From Thamnocephalis sphaerospora (taxonomy: Eukaryota; Zoopagomycota; Zoopagomycetes; Zoopagales; Sigmoideomycetaceae), in contig KZ992684.1 of assembly GCA_003614735.1 (NCBI GenBank), positions 1 to 21,274 on the forward strand: 21,274 nucleotides of DNA, read 5' to 3'. Position numbers and translations under genes: made by a program. The notes beneath the pieces are model-generated. The model saw only the letters and a list, made by a program, of their open reading frames with translations. It was not told the DNA's origin and searched no databases. Below are positions 2,416 through 21,274 of this stretch, one piece after another. The first letter of the stretch is position 1, and each line of letters begins with the position of its first letter.

Positions 2416-4978
2416 CTAGTGCCCGCTCACCGACGAGGATGAGGTGGTGTCATCGGCAAACATTGCGGCCACAGTGTTGGCGGACGGCTGTGCCGGCTTG
2501 GAGCGCTTGCGCAGACCAAGCGTGTTGGACAGGCGTCGGATCTGATTGCGAATGCGCTCCTTGATCGTGACGGCCCGCTTCACCTCCTCATCGGTGACAT
2601 TCACCTGCGTGTAGCGAGTAGGATCCGTCGCACGACGCCAGCCATCCGGATCGGGCAGGTCGGCAACGACCCACGGATGGCGCTATTGTGTAGCGGGTAG
2701 GCAGTACGCATCGGCACGCGTATGAGTATGGGTGCGCACTCCTATCGCCGTTCTCACGAGCGCAACAGCAATAGCTTACCTTTACTTCGGACAGGGTGAT
2801 GCGTGCCGTCGGATCCTTGGTGAGCAGCCTCTGCAGCAGATCCCGCAGCAGTGGCGAGACTACTACATCGCTGGGAAATGTCAGTTCCTTGCGCGGAATC
2901 ACATTGAACAGCTCCCATTCTGTTTCCGCCATGAATGGACAGCGACCGTACACCAGACAGTAGAGCGTGACACCCAATGCCCACACGTCAATGGCCTTGG
3001 TGACGGGCGGACGGCTGCTGCTGTTGCTACGGTTGCCCGACGAAAGCCGGTGCACATCTGGCGGTGTCGCCGCCGCCAAAGACGAAGTCCTGCTGGCCGT
3101 CCCGTCGTCGTTATTGTCGCCCAGACCGCCAGTGTAGCAGAGTTCGGGAGCAAAGAACGCCGGGCTGCCGACCGTCTTGGCCAGCTCTGCTTCGTCGTCG
3201 GCCCATCGGCCATCCGTATCCTCGTCGTCGTCAACACTACCGTGCGACTCGTTTGAGGAACAGGTGCGCTGGCTATGGCGACGAGCCATCGCTACGCTGC
3301 TGGTGCTGCTGTTGCGCAGGCTGGCGGTACGGGGTGCTCGCAGATGGCTCACGCCAAAGTCGGTGATTTTGACTGTGCGCGAGTCGGCCGTCATGAGCAA
3401 GTTGGCCGGCTTGATGTCCCGGTGCACGATGCCCTGGTGATGCAGGTACTCGAGGCCGAGCACCACATCGCGGAAGATGCGTCGCGTGTCTTCCTGCGAC
3501 AACAGCGGCAGATCAGCGTCCGGCTGCTTCCAGCGTACTTCACCGCCATCCAACAGCTCGAGGATCAGGTAGATTTTGCGCGCATCAGGGTCGTCGATGA
3601 CCTCGTTCAACCGGACAACATTCGGATGACGGCACTTTTTCAGAATAGCAATCTCACGCCGAATCTTATCCAGATGCGGCTCGCGCGAGCTGGGCATACC
3701 ACCGCCTGGCAACATAGCGTTGGGCGTGCCGGGCGACATGCTTCCAACACCGCTGCGGCTCATGCGACCGTATTGTGACATGCGATAGCGCCGCCGCACC
3801 GACTTGTCGACGATCTTGATGGCGCACGACTGGCCCGTGATGGTGTCACGCGCCAGCTTTACCTTGCCGTGCACGCCACGGCCAAGATCGCCGGTGATCA
3901 TATAGTGGTTTAGCATTTTGTTGCCAGTGTGCGGGTCGTACTCTTTGACCACTTTGTTGGTCTCCTTGACAGGCGGCGCGGCATTCGACGCCATCGTCGC
4001 CACGGCGTGCTGCTGTCTCGAGCGCTTGCTACCATGGCGAGAAGCATCGCCCGCATTCACCGCTAGATCCATAGAAAAGACGCGGCGTCCACCTCGTCCC
4101 TGGTCATCCAACGGCAGAATCGGCGATGGAATGGCGGTGGACGGAGCTGACGAGAGCGACGCATCCGAGCCATTCTTGCTGCCACGCAAATGCCGCAGCC
4201 GAGACCAGAATCGAATCGCCTTATCACTGCGCGCACCAGGCGCGCCGAGTGAACCGGGCATCAACAGCGATTCGGTGGGCGGCAGCATGGTGGCATTCGG
4301 TAGAGCCAGGTAAGCAGGGTCGGCGTGTCGACGTTCTGGGCGTGCACGATGCATCAGCGCATCACCCTCGCTGGTGCGCCGGCGCACCGACACAGTGCCA
4401 CTGCCGCTCAGCGTGCCGAAACCAGATGCTGGCGAGAGGCCGGCCGAGTGTACACTCTGCTGGCGCGGCAGTCCGGGACTTCCTAGCGCACCGGCCGACG
4501 CCCACGCCGTTGCAGAGCCGAGATGACCTGCATCGCTGTAGGCATCGTCATGGCTACTTGTGCTGTATGCCGGGCTGTGCGGGCTGCGCCGCGCACCTCT
4601 AGGTCTGGATGCAGTGGGTGCTGGCGCATAGGCGTCGTCGGCCGACACGTGAAACTCCTCGCTGTCGCCAGTCAACGGCGGCGACGGGATCACCGATGCA
4701 TCACCCATGGCCAGTTCCAGGCGCTGCAGAATGGACGGATGCAGCGAAGTGGGCGGACACGCCAGCGTAGCGGCCGAGAGATTAGCAGGCTTGGAGAAGG
4801 ATGGAGTGGGCGCATGCACGGGAGAAGCAGGAATTGGCGGTAATGTGCTGCAGGGTGCAGGTTTGTGCAAGCTACCACTGCGCGGTCGAGCTGCGCTGGA
4901 AGTCAGCGTTGGCGGGGCCGACAGATCCAGCGTGAACGCGGGGCGACCGGCGCCGTCGCTGTGTCGGGCTGTCATCAT
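2416..4978 (-). CDS. Ser/Thr protein kinase, CaMKK / Sak1-Tos3-Elm1 (Ssp1) type
   Basis: Two exons, 2780-4978 and 2416-2682, are joined across a 97-bp GTAAGC...TAG intron to give 821 residues. The start is the ATG at 4978 (MMTARHSD); upstream in frame there is only a TTG. The first 345 or so residues are Ser/Pro/Ala-rich and probably disordered. The kinase domain has a glycine loop GRGVHGKVKLA near residue 363, CAIKIVDK with the catalytic Lys, HRDIKPANLL near 517, DFGVSH near 540, FFAPEL and DVWALGVTLYCL. The loop form GxGxHGKVKLA and the LLDGGEVRW stretch are typical of fungal CaMKK-like kinases, which activate Snf1/AMPK and, for Elm1, control morphogenesis. A Ser-rich acidic insert of about 60 residues lies between DFG and APE, and another insert follows APE. 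Exon 2 supplies RHPWV and a basic tail. I infer kinase activity; which of Sak1, Tos3, Elm1 or Ssp1 it matches cannot be fixed by eye. Confidence 0.9.
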
Positions 4979-6841
4979 TGACAGAACGTTCGGGCAGCAA
5001 GCACACGGCTGCCGCGGCTGCAAGTGCGGTATCTGTTACCGATACTGCTGCAGCAGGATGAAGGGGTGGCGTATGGGTGGTTTAGCAGTCAAGCGTACCT
5101 GCCTGTGACGAGACAATATATCGACGTTGCAAAAGCAATTAGCGTCAGTCGGTGTTGCTTCAGCCAAGCTCAGCAGCCAAGCGTTGCCGAGAGCGAGAGG
5201 AAGACGCGACACAAAGACTAAGCGCCGTGCGGCCTTAGAAACGATGTCGGGCAAAAAAGGCAAGCGTATCACCAAGTATTGCACGCCGTGGTCAGTCAGG
5301 GCGCCAGCGCGCAAAGCGAAAGCAGAAGGGCGATAGCGTACAGGGAAAAGGGTAGAGTGTGGGGCGCGTGCTCGCCAGAAGGAGAGAACGGCGTTTGGAC
5401 TAGGAACAAGCGTGCGCGTGGGTGTGCGCGCATGTATCAGTGAGAGTGTGGCGACAGGTGCGTGGGGTGGGCGAGTGTATGAACAGATGCGAGCGCACGC
5501 GCGCAACGAGCACGGCAGTGCAGCAGCCAGACCAGACGTGTGGTCGATCAGGCTCCCAGTGTACAGCCGCCGCCGTATCAAGGGCAGGGGACGGTGTAGA
5601 CTGCGATGAGGCAAGAGGGCGAAGCAGCGTAGAGAGCAATAGGGAGAGAGGACAAGAGGAAGGGAGAGAGCGAAAGCGTGGAGCGGGGCTGCGTGACCAC
5701 CACCACCAGACTTGGCAGCTCTACCCAACTTGCTCATCGGAGCAGCATCCGTGGCACCGGCGGTATTGCCGCTCCGTTGATCAGAAGCCAGCCAGCTAGC
5801 CGTCAACGCTCGCGCAATCCACCAGATCAAACAGGGGAAAGCAATGCTGTATCCGCGCGGCGCTATCACCCAAGACGTCCATGGCCACTTACCGATAATG
5901 GGCTGTATGCGCTTAGCCAGCAACAAGGCGTGAGCAGCAGGTGCAAGATCTAAGTGTCCGCGCTACGATTTAGCGAGTGCTGCCAAGGCGTACGGTGCAG
6001 CTCGCGAGCTGGACAATGGCGGACCAAGAAGGCACGTCCGTCTAGGTGGACACAAGGGTAGTGGTGGGTGGGATGGCTGTTCTGAGGCGGGCGGAACAGC
6101 ATACAATGACGAGCACGTCTCAGGCTCGCAATCTATGCTTACGTATCTAGCAGGTGGAAAGAAAAGAGTGGGACGTAGGCAGGCAGGCGAGCAAGTGAAT
6201 GGACGGACGAGCAAAAAGACAGACACGACGGCACAGAAGAGGAAAAGGCGTTACGCCGTACGAGCCGACCATCGGATAAAGTGCAACGAGTAAAGAAGCA
6301 AGTTCAAGGTGGACGGCAACACAGACCAGCGAGACGACGCATAGCGCAAGCAAGGCCGGCTGCGGGCAGGTGCGCACATCAACGCATGTTGCATCGACGC
6401 CGAACAAGCCAAGCAAGGCCCCTTTTTGCCGGACGGTGCACGCGCGCGCACATTCTCCGGATAGACGAGCAGGCGGAGTACGCGCCCACGCGTCCAGGGG
6501 GCATGGATGTAGTGAGGGCGCGTACAGGCCAGCATGACGCGAGCGCAGCATAGCCGCAACGTACGCGCACGCAGACCTTTTCATATGCACGGCAACGACG
6601 ACGACAGTAACTTACTCGAGCGTAGTATTCAGCGTCCAGGGAACGGGAACGTTGTGGTGACGGTGCACGGCAGCAATGAGCGCATACACCCACGCACGTC
6701 GACCACAACAACGTAGCACGCGTGTAGGCCGGCCGAGGTGGCGTTGGCAGGAATGCTGCGACAGCGACTGGGACAGTGGACGCGTAGTGCAGCGTGCGTG
6801 CTTGGTTGGGGAAACAGGTGAAGAGAACGAGCGAGCGAGCG
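4979..6841. other. Long region upstream of the kinase, no recognised gene
   Basis: This 1.86-kb stretch lies 5' of the kinase. Its - strand is pyrimidine-rich, with CTCTCT and CACAC-like runs around 5400-5700 and 6100-6500, which would suit a long 5' leader and promoter. A 296-codon open frame on the - strand (5036-5926) is rich in Arg, Leu, Pro and Ala. It shows no domain or motif I recognise, and the compositional bias explains its openness. No tRNA or other RNA gene was seen. Confidence 0.5.
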
Positions 6842-9327: not shown

Positions 9328-9789
9328 TTAGATCAGGTAGACGGCCTGGCCGGCTGCCATCGCACCTAGCAGAGCAGCGCCCAGCATACCCTGACTGTCG
9401 ACGGCCAAACCCGCTGCACCGCTGGTTGGCGTAGGAGATGCCGTCACCGTGGTTGTGCTGCTGACCACATCCGTCACGGCGGGCGCTTGCTCTGGTGCCG
9501 GGGCCACCGGGGCCACGGGAGCTACGGGGGCTACGGGGGCCACGGGAGCTACGGGAACGACGGGAACGGGCTCCGGTACAACCACAGTAGACAGCAGGGG
9601 GGTCTCGGCAGGCGGCGCAGGAGGCGGTGCCGATGTATAGACAACCGGGCTGATGGAGCTTGCAGAGAAATCCGGCAGCGGCTCACCTGGCGCGGGCGAG
9701 TAGATGGCACCTTCGGCGCTCACCGAGCTGGCAAGCAGAAAGCTGGCCAGCACGACGGCAGCAGGCGCAAAGAGCTTGGTGGTGAACAT
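9328..9789 (-). CDS. Surface protein A: secreted, PVAP-repeat, likely GPI-anchored
   Basis: A single exon encodes 153 residues. The ATG at 9789 begins MFTTKLFAPAAVVLASFLL, a typical signal peptide probably cut after SVSA near residue 26. The mature part starts EGAIYSPAPGE, then is Pro/Ser-rich with VVYTSAPPPAP. It has six or so PVA/PVAP repeats followed by APEQAPAVTD, and a Thr-rich stretch with TASPTPTSGAAG. It ends in a hydrophobic tail (GAALLGAMAAGQAVYLI) that fits a GPI-attachment signal. There is no enzyme domain, and a wall or surface role is inferred. It shares its C-terminal module with B, D and F. A TATA box lies 139 bp upstream of the ATG. Confidence 0.8.
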   Translation of the reverse strand: MFTTKLFAPAAVVLASFLLASSVSAEGAIYSPAPGEPLPDFSASSISPVVYTSAPPPAPPAETPLLSTVVVPEPVPVVPVAPVAPVAPVAPVAPVAPAPEQAPAVTDVVSSTTTVTASPTPTSGAAGLAVDSQGMLGAALLGAMAAGQAVYLI

Positions 9790-9927
9790 TATGGTGGATG
9801 GACACGGCGGTAGTAGCAGTACTAGTGGTGGTCTCGCAGGAAGGTGCACAAAAGTGGCCAAAGTGGCTGATGCTGTTGAGCTGTCGTAGTAAAGAGCAGG
9901 CCGATGTATACGCGCCGATTGCCAGCA

Positions 9928-9933
9928 TTTATA
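9928..9933 (-). promoter_or_regulatory. TATA box of surface gene A
   Basis: TATAAA on the - strand in the context GCGTATAAATGC, 139 bp upstream of the ATG at 9789. Confidence 0.5.
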
Positions 9934-10577
9934 CGCGCAAAATGCATGCTCTTGTATGCTTCTGCGACATGAAGAGATAGCATGTGTCAAACCGTAAACC
10001 TTGCATTACGCAAGAATGTACCAAACCATCGCCAGTACGCACGCACGCACGCAAACGCAACTGCCCCCAGAAGAAGCAAGCGCGGCAGGGGTGTAGAACC
10101 ACCGTGTCTGACGCAGTGCCGGTCTCTTTCTCCCTGTGAGTGGCATGTTTAAGGCGGTAGAGCGCATCCGTCGGTCACCGATCGCGTCATGCGTTCTATT
10201 ACAGACACAAATTGGTATCGGCCGTGTTTGCACTGCGGTCAGCCTGGCTTGCAAGCACGCACGATGCACATGTACGTATCCGCATGTCTCATCTCCTCTA
10301 CTCACTCGGCTGTTTATTTATCTGAATCGGAAGCGCCAGACAATAGCGTAAGCAGTCAGTGATAATGTCATGGTTTGAGTAGGATACGGTAATACGCTTT
10401 GTACAAAAACATGCGCCAAGCGATCGACGCAGTACCGCTCTAAAACGCCATCGCTATCCAATATGACCATGCAAATGATAAACAGCAATCGCAAAGTTGT
10501 CTCACTCAACGTTATGTGTGCCTTATGTTGCAATATGCTCGTAAAACAAAGATGATATAGTGCTATGAACAAACGTA

Positions 10578-11570: not shown

Positions 11571-12149
11571 TTAGAGCAAAAAGGCTGAATTAACTAACAA
11601 AGGAACTAATAGACTAAAGATTACGGCGATCAGAGGGCGGCCTGTAGAGTCGTGTGGGCTGCCGGAACTCTGCGGTGATCCCGTACCATTAGGCACAGCG
11701 GTGGCCGACGTGTTTGTCGTCGGCGCCACTGTCGTCACATTTGCCGCCAGTGTGGGAGATGGTATGGGCGAGAGTACGTGCGCGGGTAGCGTAGGCGACG
11801 GTATTGGCGGGAGCACAGGCGATGGCACTGCTGGTTGCGTAGGCGACGGTGCCGACGAGCGCATAGGCGATGAAGGACCAGTCGGCTGCTTGCTGTCTGG
11901 CCCCTGGCCGGGAGGATATAGCGGCCATTGTGCGCCAACACCAGGCAGATGCAAAGGCCAGCCGCCTTCCGTGCCAGGGATCATCAACGGCCAGCCTTTC
12001 TCAGTACCTGGTACCGCGGGCGTGTGCACCGCCGGTGTGGAGGTGATCGGCAATGTCTGTACTGAATCTATAGCCACTGCGAGCGCCGTGTGGCTGATAT
12101 AGCTGGTGAGGATGCCCAGAAGCAGGGCAGTTTTTAGAAGGGCTAGCAT
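11571..12149 (-). CDS. Surface protein C: secreted, GWP-repeat, Ser/Pro-rich, likely GPI-anchored
   Basis: A single exon from ATG 12149 encodes 192 residues; an upstream in-frame extension exists but would bury the signal peptide. MLALLKTALLLGILTSYI is the signal peptide. Residues 47-81 hold three imperfect copies of a PG-TE-GWPL motif: GTEKGWPLMIPG, GTEGGWPLHLPG and a degenerate GVGAQWPLYPPG. A region with SPTQPAVPSPVLPPIPSPT repeats follows, then NVT, NTS and NGT N-glycosylation sites. The hydrophobic end (LIAVIFSLLVPLLVNSAFLL) fits a GPI signal or a membrane anchor. The GWP repeat is shared only with D in this window. I recognise no named family for it. Confidence 0.8.
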   Translation of the reverse strand: MLALLKTALLLGILTSYISHTALAVAIDSVQTLPITSTPAVHTPAVPGTEKGWPLMIPGTEGGWPLHLPGVGAQWPLYPPGQGPDSKQPTGPSSPMRSSAPSPTQPAVPSPVLPPIPSPTLPAHVLSPIPSPTLAANVTTVAPTTNTSATAVPNGTGSPQSSGSPHDSTGRPLIAVIFSLLVPLLVNSAFLL

Positions 12150-12420
12150 AATTAATGACGCGCAGCTGCGACTGTGGCGAACGTGTACTGGCAGCAAGCA
12201 GAGGACACATTAGCTACGGTGATCGATGCAACATCCCGCGCCTGGTGGACATGTGGAGAGGCTTCATTCGGCCTGCTCGCCCAAGCACGGCCACACAGGC
12301 ATACCTGGCTCAAAGTGAACAGTTGGATTCATTATTGCAGAGCACGAAAATGCAACGGGGGATGGCGGGAGGAAAGAGAGGCGGTTGTGAAAAGGCGGAA
12401 AACATTGCGCAGTCTGTGGT

Positions 12421-13473
12421 CTAAAGAGCAAAGAAGGCTGAGCAAAGGAGTGCCGCCACGCCGACGACCACTTGTTGCAAGAGAGCGTGGTTGTGCCCGT
12501 TTTGGCCAAGGGCGCCGCTTGTCAGCGTGGGAGACGCAGTCTCAGTCACAACCGTGGTCGTGGTGCTTGTCACAAGCACAGTACTCTCATTCGCTTGTTC
12601 CGGCGCGGGAGCAACGGGGGTTGGTTCAACGGGAACGACCGTGGCAACAGGCTCAATTGGGGCGACCGGCGCGACTGGAGCAGGAGTTGGCGTAACTTCA
12701 GCATTGGGTGGCACGTAAACAATCTGGTCGGGGAACTGGCCGCCATCGGTCGGAGCAAAGACGATCTGACTTGGTGGCGCACTGTCTCCCACCAGCACTG
12801 GCACCTGGTTGCTACCTGCGCCTGGCAGGCCGACAATCACCGGAACGGGACCGCCGGCCGGAGGAGGAGGAGGCGGAGATGGTGATGGTGGTGGTGGTGG
12901 TGGTGGTGCGGGCGCTGCCTCTGGTGCCGGAGGCGGAGGCGGCGCCGGAGCTGGCGCTGGCGGTGGTGGTGGCGGAGGCGGCGGGGGAGGCGGCGGAGGT
13001 GGAGGCGATGGCGATGGCGGCGGAGGCGGAGGCGGCGATGTGGTAGCCGGCAGAGGTGCAACAACGACTTGTCCAGGTGGAGGCGGCGGGCCCACGGCTA
13101 CCGGCACCTGAGTACCAGCGCCAGGTGGCACGATAAGGACAGGAACGGTTGTCGAGGCTGCTGCAGGAGCTGGAGTAGAAGGCGGAGACGGCGATACTAC
13201 TGGTGCCGGGAGAACAACGGGGCTGCCAGCCGGGGCTGCCAGGTCGGCAGCGCTGGCACGCTCGTTGCGTGGTGGGATCACAAATGGCGCACGCTCCCGG
13301 GCGCCAAACGGCGTTGGCGGCCATCCTGCCTCGGTGCCTGGAATGGGCAGGGGCCATCCATTCTCCACACCGGGAATGGGCGGTGGCCAGGCGAGCACGC
13401 CAGAGGCAAGCGCAACAACAGAGGCTGCAAGTAGCATGGCCACATCGGTAAGCGGTTGCTGTGGTCTGCGCAT
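12421..13473 (-). CDS. Surface protein D: GWP repeat, polyproline core, PVAP module, likely GPI-anchored
   Basis: A single exon encodes 350 residues from ATG 13473 (MRRPQQPLTDVAM); a start at 13437 (MLLAASVVALASG) is also possible and leaves the signal peptide intact. Residues 34-55 carry two GWP repeats like those of C. Residues 110-141 and 210-241 are diverged copies of one another (VPV-[LI]-x-PGAG...QVPV...Q-[VI]-V-x-AP). They flank a Pro-rich core (about 146-206) with long proline runs. Then come QIVYVPPNAE, PVAP repeats, VAPAPEQA near 286, TETASPTLTSGAL near 310-322 and a hydrophobic end. The front resembles C and the back resembles A and B, so it looks like a module fusion. Polyproline suggests an extended wall-spanning stalk. 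That role is inference. Confidence 0.82.
   Translation of the reverse strand: MRRPQQPLTDVAMLLAASVVALASGVLAWPPPIPGVENGWPLPIPGTEAGWPPTPFGARERAPFVIPPRNERASAADLAAPAGSPVVLPAPVVSPSPPSTPAPAAASTTVPVLIVPPGAGTQVPVAVGPPPPPGQVVVAPLPATTSPPPPPPPSPSPPPPPPPPPPPPPPPPAPAPAPPPPPAPEAAPAPPPPPPPSPSPPPPPPAGGPVPVIVGLPGAGSNQVPVLVGDSAPPSQIVFAPTDGGQFPDQIVYVPPNAEVTPTPAPVAPVAPIEPVATVVPVEPTPVAPAPEQANESTVLVTSTTTTVVTETASPTLTSGALGQNGHNHALLQQVVVGVAALLCSAFFAL
12880..13045. repeat. GGT/GGC-rich repeat encoding polyproline
   Basis: The + strand shows runs of GGT (around 12888-12906) and GGC/GGA triplets. Read on the - strand they are proline codons in the core of gene D. The mixture of codons suggests selection for proline as well as slippage. 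Confidence 0.7.
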
Positions 13474-13588
13474 TTCGGATAGCAGGCGGAGGGCCGAGTA
13501 CGATGGTTGATCAGCTGGAAAAAAACAGGTCTGCAGACAGGCCGTGCTAGTTGGTATGCGACCACAGGCCCAAGTAATCTGCCGCTTG

Positions 13589-13595
13589 TTATATA
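13589..13595 (-). promoter_or_regulatory. TATA box of surface gene D
   Basis: TATATAA on the - strand, about 116 bp upstream of the ATG at 13473, the same spacing as in gene B. Confidence 0.5.
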
Positions 13596-14085
13596 CACGT
13601 TTCTGTGGCGACAGATGCTCGGCCGGGAGGCGTGTACTCTGTTGCAAATGAAGCGCAACAGAGTGTGCGCTCATTGTCATTTGGCAGCAGCCGCTCATCT
13701 GTGGGCATTTGACGTGATCAGTCTCAATATACCATGGCAGTCATGCCAATTTCCTGATATGCTGCCAGGGTGCCTTGTAGGCACACACACACAATATGGC
13801 CGCACACTCGCAAGGACATTGAGCACAAATATGTCTAGAGGTGACTGCGACTTCATTGCGAGTTGGTACGAGAAGGCGTGGTGGCCATCACCCTGGGTGT
13901 ACAGCCACGCCACAGTGGCTGGCATAGCAAACCCCCTGGCACACCACGGGCTACCTGAGCCAAGAACGAATGTATCACGGAGTAATGATGGCGATACTGG
14001 CCGCTGTATTGGCGTGGACGCGAGATTGGCCTGCATAGACTGTATGCTCTAGCACGCCACGCAGACAACATGACAGCATCCCGTC
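13596..14085. other. Intergenic region between genes E and D
   Basis: About 490 bp with no recognised gene. It should hold the distal promoter of D and the 3' UTR of E. An ACACACACAC run lies near 13783-13792. Open frames here lack signal peptides or motifs. Confidence 0.5.
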
Positions 14086-14937
14086 CTAGATGCCCCATAC
14101 CACTGGAATAGCCATCAGCAATGAGAAGAACACCGCAATGGCTGTCCACCAAAGGGCAAGTATATGACCTGTATCCCTGATGGCTGTTGCTGTAAACGCA
14201 GTGGTCTCCTTTGCCGGAGATTGCTGTGTAGTGGTGGGTTTGGTGGCTTGGGTGCTAGTAGTAGTAGTAGCGGCAGTAGTAGAGGCTGACTTATCGCGCG
14301 AGCTAGATGTCTTTGTCGCGGTGATAATAGGCTCCTGCGGCGTTGTCACCAGCACGTCAAAGGCATTGCTGGACGACAGTAGCGTGCGACTCGACGTAGC
14401 CGATGCTGATGGTGGATGTGTTTGAGAAGCAGATGGCGCATCCTCCGTATGCGTCGGCGCAGCAGATGCTGACGACGCATGTGTTTGAGGAGTAGACGAT
14501 GAACCTTCTGCGTGTGTCGATATGGTAGGCGAAGGTGCCGCACGCGATGGCGGACCAGTGGATGACGATGTCCACGTTGAAGCGCCAGTGGATGATGGTG
14601 TCCACGTTGAAGTGTCAGTGGATGACGGTATCTGTGTCGGCACGGCGTCTGCCGGCTTTTCATTACTCGTCGGCATGGATGGCATCTCATTAAGCTCCTC
14701 GATGGACGGCGGCACCTGATCTCGCTTCGTCAACATGTTTCCCGAAAGCGCAGTTACAGGGATATGCGGGAAATCATTGAGCAATCGCGTATAGCTGTCG
14801 GCTGTATTTGATTTCTCTACAGGCTTCAGCGTAAACTTGGAACGAGTGCTCTCGGCCACAACGCTCCGAGTCGACCCGTATGCCAGTGCGATCGTAAGCA
14901 CAGAGATGGCAACGTGGTAATAGCTGCAAGTCTTCAT
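14086..14937 (-). CDS. Surface protein E: mucin-like Ser/Thr-rich, KR processing site, membrane/GPI tail
   Basis: A single exon of 283 residues starts MKTCSYYHVAISVLTIALAY, a signal peptide. The segment up to about residue 70 is of ordinary composition and ends GNMLTKR, a likely Kex2 site at residues 71-72 that would release the rest as DQVPPSIEELNEM. Residues from about 90 to 240 are Ser/Thr/Pro/Ala-rich. Internal repeats (SSTDTSTWTPSSTGASTWT, and QTH-SSASA units) fit dense O-mannosylation. The C-terminus HILALWWTAIAVFFSLLMAI is strongly hydrophobic, a GPI signal or transmembrane anchor. It lacks the PVAP and TSGA modules of its neighbours. No named family is recognised, and a heavily glycosylated surface or sensor protein is inferred. 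Confidence 0.8.
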   Translation of the reverse strand: MKTCSYYHVAISVLTIALAYGSTRSVVAESTRSKFTLKPVEKSNTADSYTRLLNDFPHIPVTALSGNMLTKRDQVPPSIEELNEMPSMPTSNEKPADAVPTQIPSSTDTSTWTPSSTGASTWTSSSTGPPSRAAPSPTISTHAEGSSSTPQTHASSASAAPTHTEDAPSASQTHPPSASATSSRTLLSSSNAFDVLVTTPQEPIITATKTSSSRDKSASTTAATTTTSTQATKPTTTQQSPAKETTAFTATAIRDTGHILALWWTAIAVFFSLLMAIPVVWGI

Positions 14938-16027: not shown

Positions 16028-16693
16028 CTACACGACACTGTAGACAGTCTGCACCACGGCGGCAATCAGTACGGTAAGGCAGACGTGAGCAATGGTGTCA
16101 CTGCCAAGCACGATGCTGCGCAAACCAGCCGATGGCGTGTTAGTTGGACGCTGCGGCGTTGGCGATGTGCTGGTCTTGGGCGCGGGGACGGTTGGCTGAG
16201 GTGCCGTTGTTGGCTCAGGAGATGGTGGTGGTGAAGGCTCCGGTGAGGGCTCCGGTGAGGGCGAGGGCGATGGGGACGGTGAAGGCGAGGGTGAGGGGGG
16301 CGGTGAAGGCGAGGGTGAGGGGGACGGTGACGGCGACGGAGAGGGCGATGGTGAAGGAGACGGAGAGGGCGATGGTGAAGGAGACGGAGAAGGCGAAGGC
16401 GATGGTGAAGGAGAAGGCGAAGGCGATGGTGAAGGCGATGGTGAAGGAGAAGGCGAAGGCGATGGTGAAGGAGAAGGCGAAGGCGATGGTGAAGGAGAAG
16501 GCGACGGGGATGGAGATGGAGAGGGCGAAGGCGACGGTGGCAGTTGCGCAGGAAGGACCGAAACTTCCGGTACCCGGTTTGTCGGTGCTGCTGGCAAGAA
16601 AGCAGGCGGCTCGGTCCTCTGGGGCGCCTGCTCACTGAGGCCTGCAAGCAGCGTCAATGCTGCAAACACTGGAAGGACAAAATACAGCTGCAT
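16028..16693 (-). CDS. Surface protein G: secreted Ser-Pro dipeptide repeat protein, likely GPI-anchored
   Basis: A single exon from ATG 16693 encodes 221 residues. MQLYFVLPVFAALTLLAGLS is the signal peptide. A short Pro-rich segment (VPEVSVLPAQLPP) leads into roughly 95 residues of almost uninterrupted Ser-Pro dipeptides, then EPSPEPSPPPSPEP variants and a Thr/Pro/Ser-rich region. The tail is hydrophobic (HVCLTVLIAAVVQTVYSVV). The repeat would form an extended rod that displays Ser for O-mannosylation. It has no TSGA or GWP module, so its place in the cluster rests on position, strand and general design. Repeat length is likely to vary between strains. Confidence 0.8.
   Translation of the reverse strand: MQLYFVLPVFAALTLLAGLSEQAPQRTEPPAFLPAAPTNRVPEVSVLPAQLPPSPSPSPSPSPSPSPSPSPSPSPSPSPSPSPSPSPSPSPSPSPSPSPSPSPSPSPSPSPSPSPSPSPSPSPSPSPSPSPPPSPSPSPSPSPSPSPEPSPEPSPPPSPEPTTAPQPTVPAPKTSTSPTPQRPTNTPSAGLRSIVLGSDTIAHVCLTVLIAAVVQTVYSVV
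16207..16543. repeat. Minisatellite encoding the Ser-Pro repeat
   Basis: The + strand is built of GGCGAAGGCGATGGTGAAGG-like hexamer multiples. From about 16385 to 16505 a 24-bp unit recurs almost exactly, while the ends are more diverged. Every unit is a multiple of 6 bp, so copy-number change keeps the Ser-Pro frame on the - strand. Confidence 0.8.
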
Positions 16694-17198
16694 GGTGTGC
16701 GCTTGAACAAAACGACAAGAGTGGTTCGACACGAAAGCGAGTAAAGCTACTCAAAATCTCCGGATGCCAAAGCGTTGATGTGAATGCAGAGCACGGGAAA
16801 ACCTGATATATGCTGAGGGAATGGGAAACGGCAAAAAGTAGGATGCGACGTAATGCGTCCGATAGACGGAGTCTGTGAATGCAAGCGACAAGCGATGCGG
16901 AGCTGGAATGCAGGGATGCTGAAAGAGACGAAGGGCAAAGGCCAGGTGGACGCAACACAGGCGGCTTTATATTCATCGGCAGCATGTGGTGACGCGCAAT
17001 AGTAGCCACTTGTTGATGATCTTGGGCTAAAAATAACCATCGCCAAATTTTGCTGCCATTTCTACTACAAATACGTCAGACCGAGCACAGCGCAAATAGT
17101 TATCTTGTGTGCCGTCGGTCGAGTGCCGCACTACGTTTGCGTTTCATGGACACCATGAGCTCCTGCAACCATCCACTGCAGCACTGCACAACGTAGTT
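16694..17198. other. Intergenic region between the anillin-like gene and G
   Basis: 505 bp with the G promoter and the 3' UTR of the anillin-like gene. Open frames on the - strand here are Ser/Cys/Phe-rich and end at the G start. I see no separate gene. Confidence 0.5.
16966..16971 (-). promoter_or_regulatory. Candidate TATA box of surface gene G
   Basis: TATAAA on the - strand (context GAATATAAAGCC), 273 bp upstream of the ATG at 16693, farther than in genes A, B and D. Confidence 0.35.
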
Positions 17199-20135
17199 CT
17201 ATCGATGTTGGCGAACACGGCCCATGCCACCGGATTCCACCGCAACCAGCGCCTCTTCTATCCAAGCGTGGGCCGGTGGGATTGTAATGTTGGGTAGGGC
17301 GCCAAGCATGCCTAGCCAGTGCATGCGCCCTTCTAGGGTGTCGGCGCGCAATTCCAGCTCTCCATCGGCAAAACAGAGGAAGAACGGATCGTCTGCACCC
17401 ATGTTAGGCACCGCAGCGGCCAAATCGCCACGTGTAGACACTACAGCCAGCAGTCGGCGTAGATTGACCTGCGCCACGGGCGTCTTCGTGACTGGATCGC
17501 TCAGTTGCAGTATAGCGCCCACGAGTCGACAGTGGCGACGGCGCCAAAACTAGGCACGCCGTCAGGTGAGCCATGGCCTGTATTCGCACGACCGCGTGTC
17601 TACTTACCGTCAGTCCGCCGCCCCGCTGATGCAGAATGCCCTCTGCCAACACCCGTCTGTGCCAGTGGTGCTCGTTGATAATGCGCTGGCAGGCGTCGAA
17701 TGTTTGTGGAACCTTGTGCTCCTACGCAGCCATGGACGTGTAAGCAGCGGAACCACCGTGGACAAACCAGCGTTCACCTACGGGAATACGGCAGTAGGGA
17801 GGAAGGTAGATGCCTTGCACCACCACTCGGCCACACTCCAGGCTCGATCCGGACACGTACAGCGGCCAGATGTATTTGGTCACGCAGAGCGGTACAAGCT
17901 GATCTGCAGGGACTCTACACTCGCCAACCGACTGAGACGTGTTCTGCAGGTGTGCTCCGTTCACCCCTGCGTGTCGAGGACAGACGTTTGTCTCTTTAGG
18001 CGACCGGGTTTTGCCCGAAAACAGCTGGCCTAGAGAGCGCTTCGACTGGATAAACACAGACTGCGTGCGTTGATCCCGCTCTGCGTTTGTTGTGCACTCG
18101 TGCGCAGCTGCGCGGTTCAGCGTCAGCAACACCGAGCCATGTGGCGGTATTTCGCTTTTTGTACGGGCGCACAAAACGTGATGGTGGTGTGTAAGCATCA
18201 CTGCTCAAAGGGCTGTGCAAGTCACGGCACTTACAGAACAATGCTCTCATTAAGCTTGATCTCGCTGGCAAGCGGCATGCATGTTGATCGGAAGACCGGT
18301 ACGGTATTCTTGTCTACCCGACAAGCATCGATAGCAGCGTAAGTATTGGAACAGCCATCGCCATCGTGACAATCGACACTGTCGCATCGCTCACCATGCT
18401 GTCCACGTTTGCGGATATTCTTATCCGCCGGCCAATCGCTCGTTCCGCGCATCTCTATGTGAACCATTCTGCTGGGACGACGTGCTGTAATGCAGTAGCG
18501 TGCTGTGAGCGGCAAGATGGGTTTGCTGCGACAAGATGTACGCCACTTACCAATGATAAGGCACGGATCAATCTGCTCAATTTGAAGCGCTACCGACGAT
18601 CAGTTAGCATACGTCATCTGTCATGCCAAGAGCCAGCCTACCTTTCAAGTAGAGTCTTCCGCAGCCTAGCTCTTTGTTGCTGTTAGAGGCAGTGGTCACT
18701 CTGGCGTTATACCGCTGCCGCATGTTGTCTGCTAGTGCACTTTCCCCGCGCCATGGGCGTACACACTTTAGCGGACGCGCCGCATAAGCCAAATCAATGT
18801 TGCCGTTGTTACGGGTGTGCAACCTGTATGGTTGTCTATCCCGGCCTGGATCTGCGTCGTCGTCTAGCTGCAGCAGATAAAAGGATTCAGCAGCACGTTC
18901 CATCGCCTCGTCAATAGCGCGAAATGCGTCGCTGGAGAAGCTGGATGCATTGGTAGGTGCTTTTGGTAGCTGATTGTCGTATGCTTCACGACTTGATAGC
19001 TGCTCTAGTGCCGCCATGGAACGGCAAAGCAAGCTTGTCAGTGACCCGCTGCTTTCATCACATGCTGACGACACATCGCTTGCAGTGGTGCTTGAGCGCT
19101 CGCTGGCGGTGCATGTGCTATCATGGCACAGCGAGCCGTCTCTAGCGGCTACATCATCTGCAACGCACTCGTACAGACTGCGAATATCCTGCCGAATACC
19201 TACGCAGCATGTGAGCAACGCTGCATGCTTGACTACGCGCAGCGGTCATTACCTTGCGCTTGGCGCTTTGAAAGCGCAGTATCTGTCGCAAGCGAAAAAG
19301 GCCGCGGTTGCTGTGCCAGCGATTCTTTTGGCGGTGCTACAGGCCGTGGATGCCAGCTATGCACCTGCTCAGCCCACTGGTGGTGACGCTTGGAGTGATC
19401 GTTGTCAATGCCAGAATCGGTGGAGCTGAGCAAGTCCGAGGGAAACGACGTATAGTACGCGTCCACATCGTCACCAGCATCACTACCGTCGGTAATGCTG
19501 GCATAGTCCAGTAAAATGTTGTTTGGTAATAGCGGAGAGGAAGGCCGCCGTCCAAACCGACTGTCAACGCTTCCAGTGTCGGCCGTGTGCGGTGTGCTGG
19601 CGCGTGATACCCTGCGCCGTGCGTTTACGCGGGCAATTTTTGGTCGCTTTCTACTGGTACGAGACAGGTATCTTGCAGCGCCACCGGCACGACTGCTCAT
19701 TCTACGCGACACTGCTCGACGTGAATGATAGTACGCCGGCATGGAAATGGCTCGACGGGCATTTGTCAAGCCATTGGCAGAGTAGATGTGCCCATTGGAA
19801 AAAGGCTGACTGGCCACTCTGCCAGTACGGCGTAGACAGCCCAATGTAGCATGCCCTGTAGTAAGATCAGCCGCAGCTTTTGCTTGTGCCGACACAGGGA
19901 CGATCTGGCTGGCATACGGTCGCTCTTTCAACAGGTACCGCGAGTCGCGCGGGTGCTTTGACCCTGCGCCTGACTCCGACAAACGAAAAGCGTTTGGATT
20001 GGCCATGGTACGGTAGAATGGTCCGATAAGTAGCGCAGACAGCGCTTCGGCGCAAGTTGCTTTGGCAGAGGAGTTGAACGTAGCGTGGCGAACAAGAGAA
20101 GCAAGGCGGCCGACCGCCAAATGCTGCGGCTGCAT
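17199..20135 (-). CDS. Anillin-like protein with C-terminal PH domain (Mid1/Bud4/Int1 type)
   Basis: Fungal anillins organise septins and the contractile ring at the division or bud site. My model joins 19253-20135, 18642-19199, 18551-18589, 18235-18484, 17782-18154, 17608-17721 and 17199-17549, giving 855 residues in frame with introns of 52-80 bp. The acceptor at 18484 is uncertain (18502 also works), and the 5' end is not settled. Up to about residue 450 the text is Ser/Arg-rich and disordered. Then comes an anillin-homology region: CGRLYLKALQIEQIDPCLII, CMPLASEIKLNESIVLEIPP, VLLTLNR, then SKRSLGQLFSGK. A PH domain follows from about residue 722: AEGILHQRGGGLT, FWRRRHCRLVGAILQLSD, TPVAQVNLRRL, DDPFFLCFADGELELRADT and MHWLGMLGAL. 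The GGGLTFWRRRHCRL join across the 58-bp intron is strong support. Part of exon 2 (19127-19181) recurs inverted at the window end. Confidence 0.8.
19127..19181 (-). repeat. 55-bp inverted repeat, copy inside the anillin-like gene
   Basis: Read on the - strand this segment begins GCAGTCTGTACGAGTGCG and ends GGCTCGCTGTG. It is identical over 55 bp to 21220-21274 read on the + strand. Here it lies in an open exon and encodes SLYECVADDVAARDGSL, so this is probably the original copy. Confidence 0.9.
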
Positions 20136-20642: not shown

Positions 20643-21219
20643 ATGTCTATGCGCGGCCTTACCGTGTTCATTGCCGACATTCGCAAATGTAGGTGACTGC
20701 TCTTATTGGTGTAGCTGGCAATAGTGATGGAATCCGCGGCGGATGGGCAGCCAGACACGGGCGCAGTTTACGCTGACGGGTGGTGCGCGCACAGGTCGGG
20801 TGCGTGAGCTGGAGGAGAAGCGCATCAACAAGGAGCTGGCCAACATTCGTGCAAAATTCAAAGGTGAGCTATGACGAGGACAGCGGATAGCGGGCGCTAA
20901 TCACAGCGCGCGCGCTGGCATCAGAGGGAAAGCTTGACGGGTACCAGCGGAAAAAGTATGTGTGCAAGCTGCTCTACATCTACATTCTCGGCTGGGACGT
21001 GGAGTTTGGCCATAGCGAGGCGGTGAACCTGATCTGCAGCGCAAAGTACAGCGAAATGCAAATCGTACGTGCTAGCCTTGCTGGCGGCGAGCGGCGTCCG
21101 TCTGACCGTGGCATTGCCATCTTCGTCGACTGCACTACCTTCCATCGCTATGTAGGGCTACCTTGCGCTCACGCTGCTTCTCTCGGAAAACCACGAGATG
21201 ATTCGTCTGCTGGTCAATA
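20643..21219 (+). CDS. AP-2 complex subunit alpha, 5' part
   Basis: AP-2 alpha is the large subunit of the plasma-membrane clathrin adaptor and binds PI(4,5)P2 and cargo during endocytosis. Exons 20643-20688, 20795-20863, 20925-21064 and 21156-21219 onward join in frame. They read [76 protein letters not shown] and [20 protein letters not shown]. These are the strongly conserved first helices of the alpha trunk domain, about 5-10% of a protein of roughly 950 residues. Introns are 106, 61 and 91 bp, the second with a GCTAATC branch-like site. After LLVNS the frame runs into a 55-bp block copied from the anillin-like gene, so the native sequence probably stops near 21219. The rest of the gene is outside the window. 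Gamma adaptins are less likely given [12 protein letters not shown]. Confidence 0.92.
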
Positions 21220-21274
21220 GCAGTCTGTACGAGTGCGTTGCAGATGATGTAGCCGCTAGAGACGGCTCGCTGTG
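21220..21274 (+). repeat. 55-bp inverted repeat, copy at the window end
   Basis: This block is identical to the reverse complement of 19127-19181. It follows the AP-2 alpha codons LLVN without a stop and in the same reading frame as in the anillin-like gene, giving SLYECVADDVAARDGSL. AP-2 alpha normally continues with a short NDL-S/A-RN type helix here, so most of this block looks foreign. It runs to the last base of the window. Confidence 0.9.

Follow-up and report, generated by a model that had tools for sequence, protein, structure and literature searches.

Contig C260 of the Thamnocephalis sphaerospora draft ends with a short piece of one of its own genes, read backwards and set into the middle of another gene. 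Does this tail record a rearrangement in the organism, or was it made on the way from cell to assembly? The window that we analysed, 21,274 bases long, is the entire contig (1-21274), so that the match runs out at a genuine contig end. Our answer, to which we assign a probability of about 0.93, is a two-step artefact, in which an inverted chimera formed during multiple displacement amplification (MDA) and SPAdes then stopped at k = 55, with no rearrangement of the organism's genome.

The inverted copy and its junction

An exact inverted-match scan of the window found that positions 21220-21274 are the reverse complement of positions 19127-19181 at 55 of 55 bases, with zero mismatches, a match for which the number expected by chance is about 1e-25. 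Apart from this, the window has one exact inverted match of at least 16 bases, a 16-base palindrome. A spacer of 2,038 bases separates the two inverted segments. When the continuation of the partner segment is compared with the 60 bases that precede the junction, 21 of 60 are alike, and similarity thus ends at 21219/21220. The original prediction had described both a perfect inverted copy of this stretch and an abrupt loss of similarity at this point, and both descriptions are borne out by these counts.

Across the 14,455,036 bases and 594 contigs of the draft, the end query was placed twice, at its own site and at 19127-19181. We considered a dispersed or terminal inverted repeat as the source of the tail and rejected it, since the query matches itself and the donor site only in 14.46 Mb. 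The exact edge of the copy is blurred by its opening two bases, which complete an AGC serine codon and fit either real AP-2 alpha sequence or a microhomology of 2 bases.

The donor gene and the severed gene

At their native site the 55 bases sit within a single coding block (18643-19200, minus strand), in keeping with the earlier description of a continuous exon. The joined donor gene matched a sole protein, P0241, THASP1DRAFT_30496 [Thamnocephalis sphaerospora], which maps to the minus strand of the window in five tblastn matches, three of them at 100%. One of these takes residues 150-335 along 19200-18643 at 100%, and the donor block reads through the 55 bases. The gene had been called anillin-like. 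That a coding gene lies here has held up; the anillin label is unconfirmed, as the Pfam search of the donor frames supplied returned zero domains and the database name of P0241 starts 'PH domain-containin'.

The gene on the other side of the junction is AP-2 alpha. Its N-terminal piece matches Adaptin_N in Pfam (E 7.1e-19) and, with the false tail counted, shares 87% identity with either of two Syncephalis AP-2 alpha proteins; among the matches listed, the closest named relatives of the gene are from Syncephalis, at 76% identity over 82% of the query. No T. sphaerospora protein stands among the 120 matches listed for AP-2 alpha or for the kinase ORF of this window, and in naming the species we weighted the donor gene more heavily. 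We used the 976-residue AP-2 alpha of Syncephalis fuscata (P0121) as a tblastn query against the window and the draft, and this placed residues 1-107 in four blocks within 20643-21221 of C260 (Table 1). Past the junction, six aligned relatives read on as N(S/T)(L/I)(R/K)KD, the position after N being S in five and T in one, and the window instead reads SSLYECV, which is the donor gene's own frame. The Adaptin_N match and the differing continuation of the relatives confirm that the copy interrupts AP-2 alpha, as had been proposed.

The true AP-2 alpha is shown to continue elsewhere, the gene being split in the draft with its C-terminal half on C191. The P0121 search found residues 482-956 and 939-972 there (about 482-972), at 24751-26319, stopping at most 2 bases from the end of this 26,319-base contig. 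The intervening residues 108-481, about 374 in all, were not found across the 594-contig draft. Matches to this interval were confined to C18, at 26-31% identity, save for the tip of a 39% match of C18 to residues 9-112. C18 was rejected as the missing middle on account of its identity of only 26-31%, and we take it to be another adaptin. No second copy of AP-2 alpha was seen in the 594 contigs, and the final 300 bases of C191 had no further match in the draft.

Table 1. Features of the window discussed in the text (position 1 is the first base of contig C260)
Feature	Position	Strand	Basis or remark
Pro/Ser/Thr-rich ORF	9328-9990	-	
Pro/Ser/Thr-rich ORF	11571-12197	-	
Pro/Ser/Thr-rich ORF	12421-13698	-	
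Pro/Ser/Thr-rich ORF	14086-14937	-	
Pro/Ser/Thr-rich ORF	16028-16732	-	Long Pro-Ser repeat
Donor gene, hypothetical protein THASP1DRAFT_30496 / PH domain-containing	17202..19700	-	P0241, five tblastn matches
Native site of the 55 bases, in a coding block of the PH-domain (earlier: anillin-like) gene	19127..19181	-	P0241 residues 150-335 at 100% on 19200-18643
AP-2 alpha coding block 1	20643..20693	+	tblastn P0121, 17/17
AP-2 alpha coding block 2	20800..20862	+	tblastn P0121 20788-20886; probable limits, from the alignment
AP-2 alpha coding block 3	20924..21064	+	Adaptin_N match 20924-21067, tblastn P0121; probable start
AP-2 alpha coding block 4, severed by the junction	21156..21221	+	tblastn P0121 residues 86-107, 91%
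Probable chimeric junction	21219..21220	.	21/60 identity upstream; six relatives read (S/T)(L/I)(R/K)KD vs SSLYECV in the window
Probable artefactual tail closing C260 at its 3' end, exact inverted copy	21220..21274	+	Identity with the reverse complement of 19127-19181; contig end; opening 2 bases may be AP-2 alpha

A second case and the survey of contig ends

The same arrangement is found at the end of contig C261, whose last 55 bases (21209-21263) are an exact inverted copy, exactly 55 long, of sequence that lies 2,619 bases upstream. Here the gene cut short encodes an acyl-CoA oxidase, and the inverted tail puts a stop codon inside its frame. The ACOX profile is reached to position 133 of 181; elsewhere in the genome its matches end at 173 and 179 (two matches), at 168 and 165 (C386) and at 144 (C457). 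A search for the identity of the frame copied at the C261 end gave no name.

Among the contigs viewed, lengths drop with contig number, the last-numbered, C594, has 10,047 bases, and contigs below 10 kb seem to be absent from the set searched. We surveyed 56 other contig ends for inverted repeats, taking 3,000 bases from each of 20 3' ends, 3,500 bases from each of 20 5' ends, 1,500 bases from each of 15 3' ends and 1,520 bases from the 3' end of C191. An exact inverted 55-base tail was present in one of the 56, that of C261, a figure that is a lower bound since pieces of 1,500 bases are blind to partners at least 2 kb away. In the loci compared other than these 15 ends, the only inverted repeats of at least 24 bases were those of C260 and C261, both of 55 bases and both at the contig's last base; the 15 3' ends of 1,500 bases had no inverted repeat of at least 16 bases.

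A genome-wide search of 94 contig ends was run as composite queries of 19, 26 and 49 ends, the best 40 of 47 and the best 40 of 91 candidates being scored in the latter two. Among the matches listed for these ends there was no further exact match of 55 bases, and some may have been missed. Identical overlaps of other lengths do occur: C60 and C87 share 62 bases, positions 1-166 of C262 and the end of C463 share at least 166, and at least 300 are shared both by the end of C257 with C252 (4476-4775) and by C594 (1-300) with C450 (3518-3817). The end of C160 has 100% copies in C16, C503 and C402 and inexact ones in C23 and C12, and inexact matches of 88-97% were found for the ends of C160, C265, C256, C264 and C587. 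These overlap lengths tell against a universal 55-base overlap at contig ends, and the exact overlaps in the sample agree with a floor of 55.

The three longer overlaps (C262/C463, C257/C252, C594/C450) may themselves be redundant draft sequence, arising from haplotypes or from alternative assembly paths. Contig C100 (35.7 kb) has inverted ends of another sort, with positions 1-300 and 35428-35727 near-identical over at least 300 bases and the first mismatch at base 105. Its end sequence is also present in C444 (87%) and C48 (73%) and therefore looks like a dispersed repeat. This recurrence marks another type of repeat, and the C100 ends were rejected as being of the same kind as the C260 tail.

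Origin of the tail

SPAdes contigs may end with an overlap of length k. In a de Bruijn graph with k = 55, a path that has passed a chimeric junction meets its first fully foreign k-mer after 55 bases, at which point it merges and the contig may stop. A literature search that required all terms jointly found no paper on SPAdes contig overlap or chimera.

In a published analysis of 475 MDA chimeras, 406 were inverted; in 337 of the 406 the joined segments lay within 10 kb of each other, and the joins often fell at short complementary sites (PMC1855051). For T. sphaerospora RSA 1356 (portal Thasp1), a single-cell genome was produced from sorted cells by MDA with TruSeq libraries. Single libraries were assembled by SPAdes in its single-cell mode, the k-mer sizes being 21, 33 or 55, and for the co-assemblies the paper says just 'again with SPAdes' (PMC6784888). 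We infer that the present draft is that assembly, and the THASP1DRAFT tag agrees with the name of the portal.

The tail resembles the k-length overlaps of SPAdes-type assemblies in being exact, in equalling the largest k reported for the single libraries of this species, in lying at the last base and in occurring on two contigs. The other exact overlaps seen at contig ends are of at least 62 bases. It departs from the usual overlap of this kind in that C260 overlaps its own interior, in inverted orientation, rather than a neighbouring contig. We take the tail length of 55 to be the assembler's k-mer size, and this explanation of the number is what we add to the original prediction. The length marks the assembler's stopping point and does not by itself make the junction molecule artificial. 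Also weighing against our reading are the low count of one further case in 56 ends and the lack of any other exact-55 match among those listed for the 94 ends.

That the molecule was an MDA product is suggested by the nature of the join. MDA is reported for the species, and the segments are in inverted orientation, 2,038 bases (C260) and 2,619 bases (C261) apart, which is under 10 kb. As in the inverted chimeras of the MDA study, the segments lie less than 10 kb apart and the intervening sequence is lost, and any microhomology at the junction would be short (PMC1855051). Unlike those chimeras, the C260 case is known through the assembly alone, its molecule being deduced from the contig, and its copy goes no further than 55 bases.

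We therefore propose the following order of events. As phi29 MDA amplified the DNA of the sorted cells, a 3' end displaced within AP-2 alpha would have primed anew about 2 kb off, on the other strand of the neighbouring gene, giving an inverted chimeric molecule that linked AP-2 alpha to that gene. SPAdes, run with k up to 55, would then have had the chimeric junction as its route onward from AP-2 alpha. At the first 55-mer of the neighbouring gene the path would have merged and the contig stopped, leaving behind one inverted k-mer, of which the length is observed. On this proposal exactly 55 bases are copied because the contig stops at the first merged 55-mer.

A real inversion or inverted duplication, whether carried by the genome as a whole or by just one of two haplotypes, would also join AP-2 alpha to its neighbour, and some reads must span any junction that has been assembled. 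Alternative haplotypes or paths in this draft are also hinted at by contigs that overlap over at least 300 bases. Such an event nevertheless gives no reason to expect two unrelated contig ends to carry precisely 55 bases each, and at the native site the donor block runs uninterrupted across the 55 bases. It would moreover break AP-2 alpha, of which the 594 contigs yielded no second copy. We consider a rearrangement of this kind highly unlikely, and the recurrence of precisely this length on the unrelated C261 led us to reject it as the principal reading. A narrower form would confine a real junction to part of the nuclei in the sorted cells, as a recent inverted rearrangement of about 2 kb on a minority haplotype that disrupts AP-2 alpha and happened to be caught at the contig end; this strikes us as extremely unlikely.

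The chimera might instead have been formed by fold-back or template switching while the TruSeq libraries were prepared or during sequencing, and been followed by the same k-mer stop. The assembled sequence would be expected to be identical. Spacers of 2.0 and 2.6 kb, however, exceed the usual fragments of short-insert libraries. TruSeq libraries were indeed used (PMC6784888), and it is MDA for which inverted joins at such range are documented (PMC1855051), so that we regard an origin in the library or sequencer as exceedingly improbable. The MDA chimera with a k-mer stop remains our reading, and the original prediction's preference for a fold-back or chimera over a real inversion finds support in the contig end, the twin on C261, the AP-2 alpha sequence on C191 and the use of MDA and of SPAdes with k up to 55 published for this species.

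The contig ends of this single-cell fungal draft can thus bear one inverted k-mer, here 55 bases, of foreign sequence, and gene models that reach such an end can gain false residues, in the present case SLYECVADDVAARDGSL after residue 107 of AP-2 alpha. The apparent truncation or loss of genes at these ends should not be taken for biology. A simple remedy is to flag any contig end at which the final k bases are found again, inverted, within the contig itself.

Elsewhere in the window, a kinase ORF (2588-5023) has its closest named relatives, among the matches listed, in Syncephalis, at 51% identity over 90% of the query, and one further protein matches it at 69% over 54%. The minus strand between 9328 and 16732 holds a series of ORFs in which hydrophobic stretches that look like leaders occur alongside tracts rich in Pro, Ser and Thr; by eye, the series resembles a cluster of genes for secreted or cell-wall proteins.
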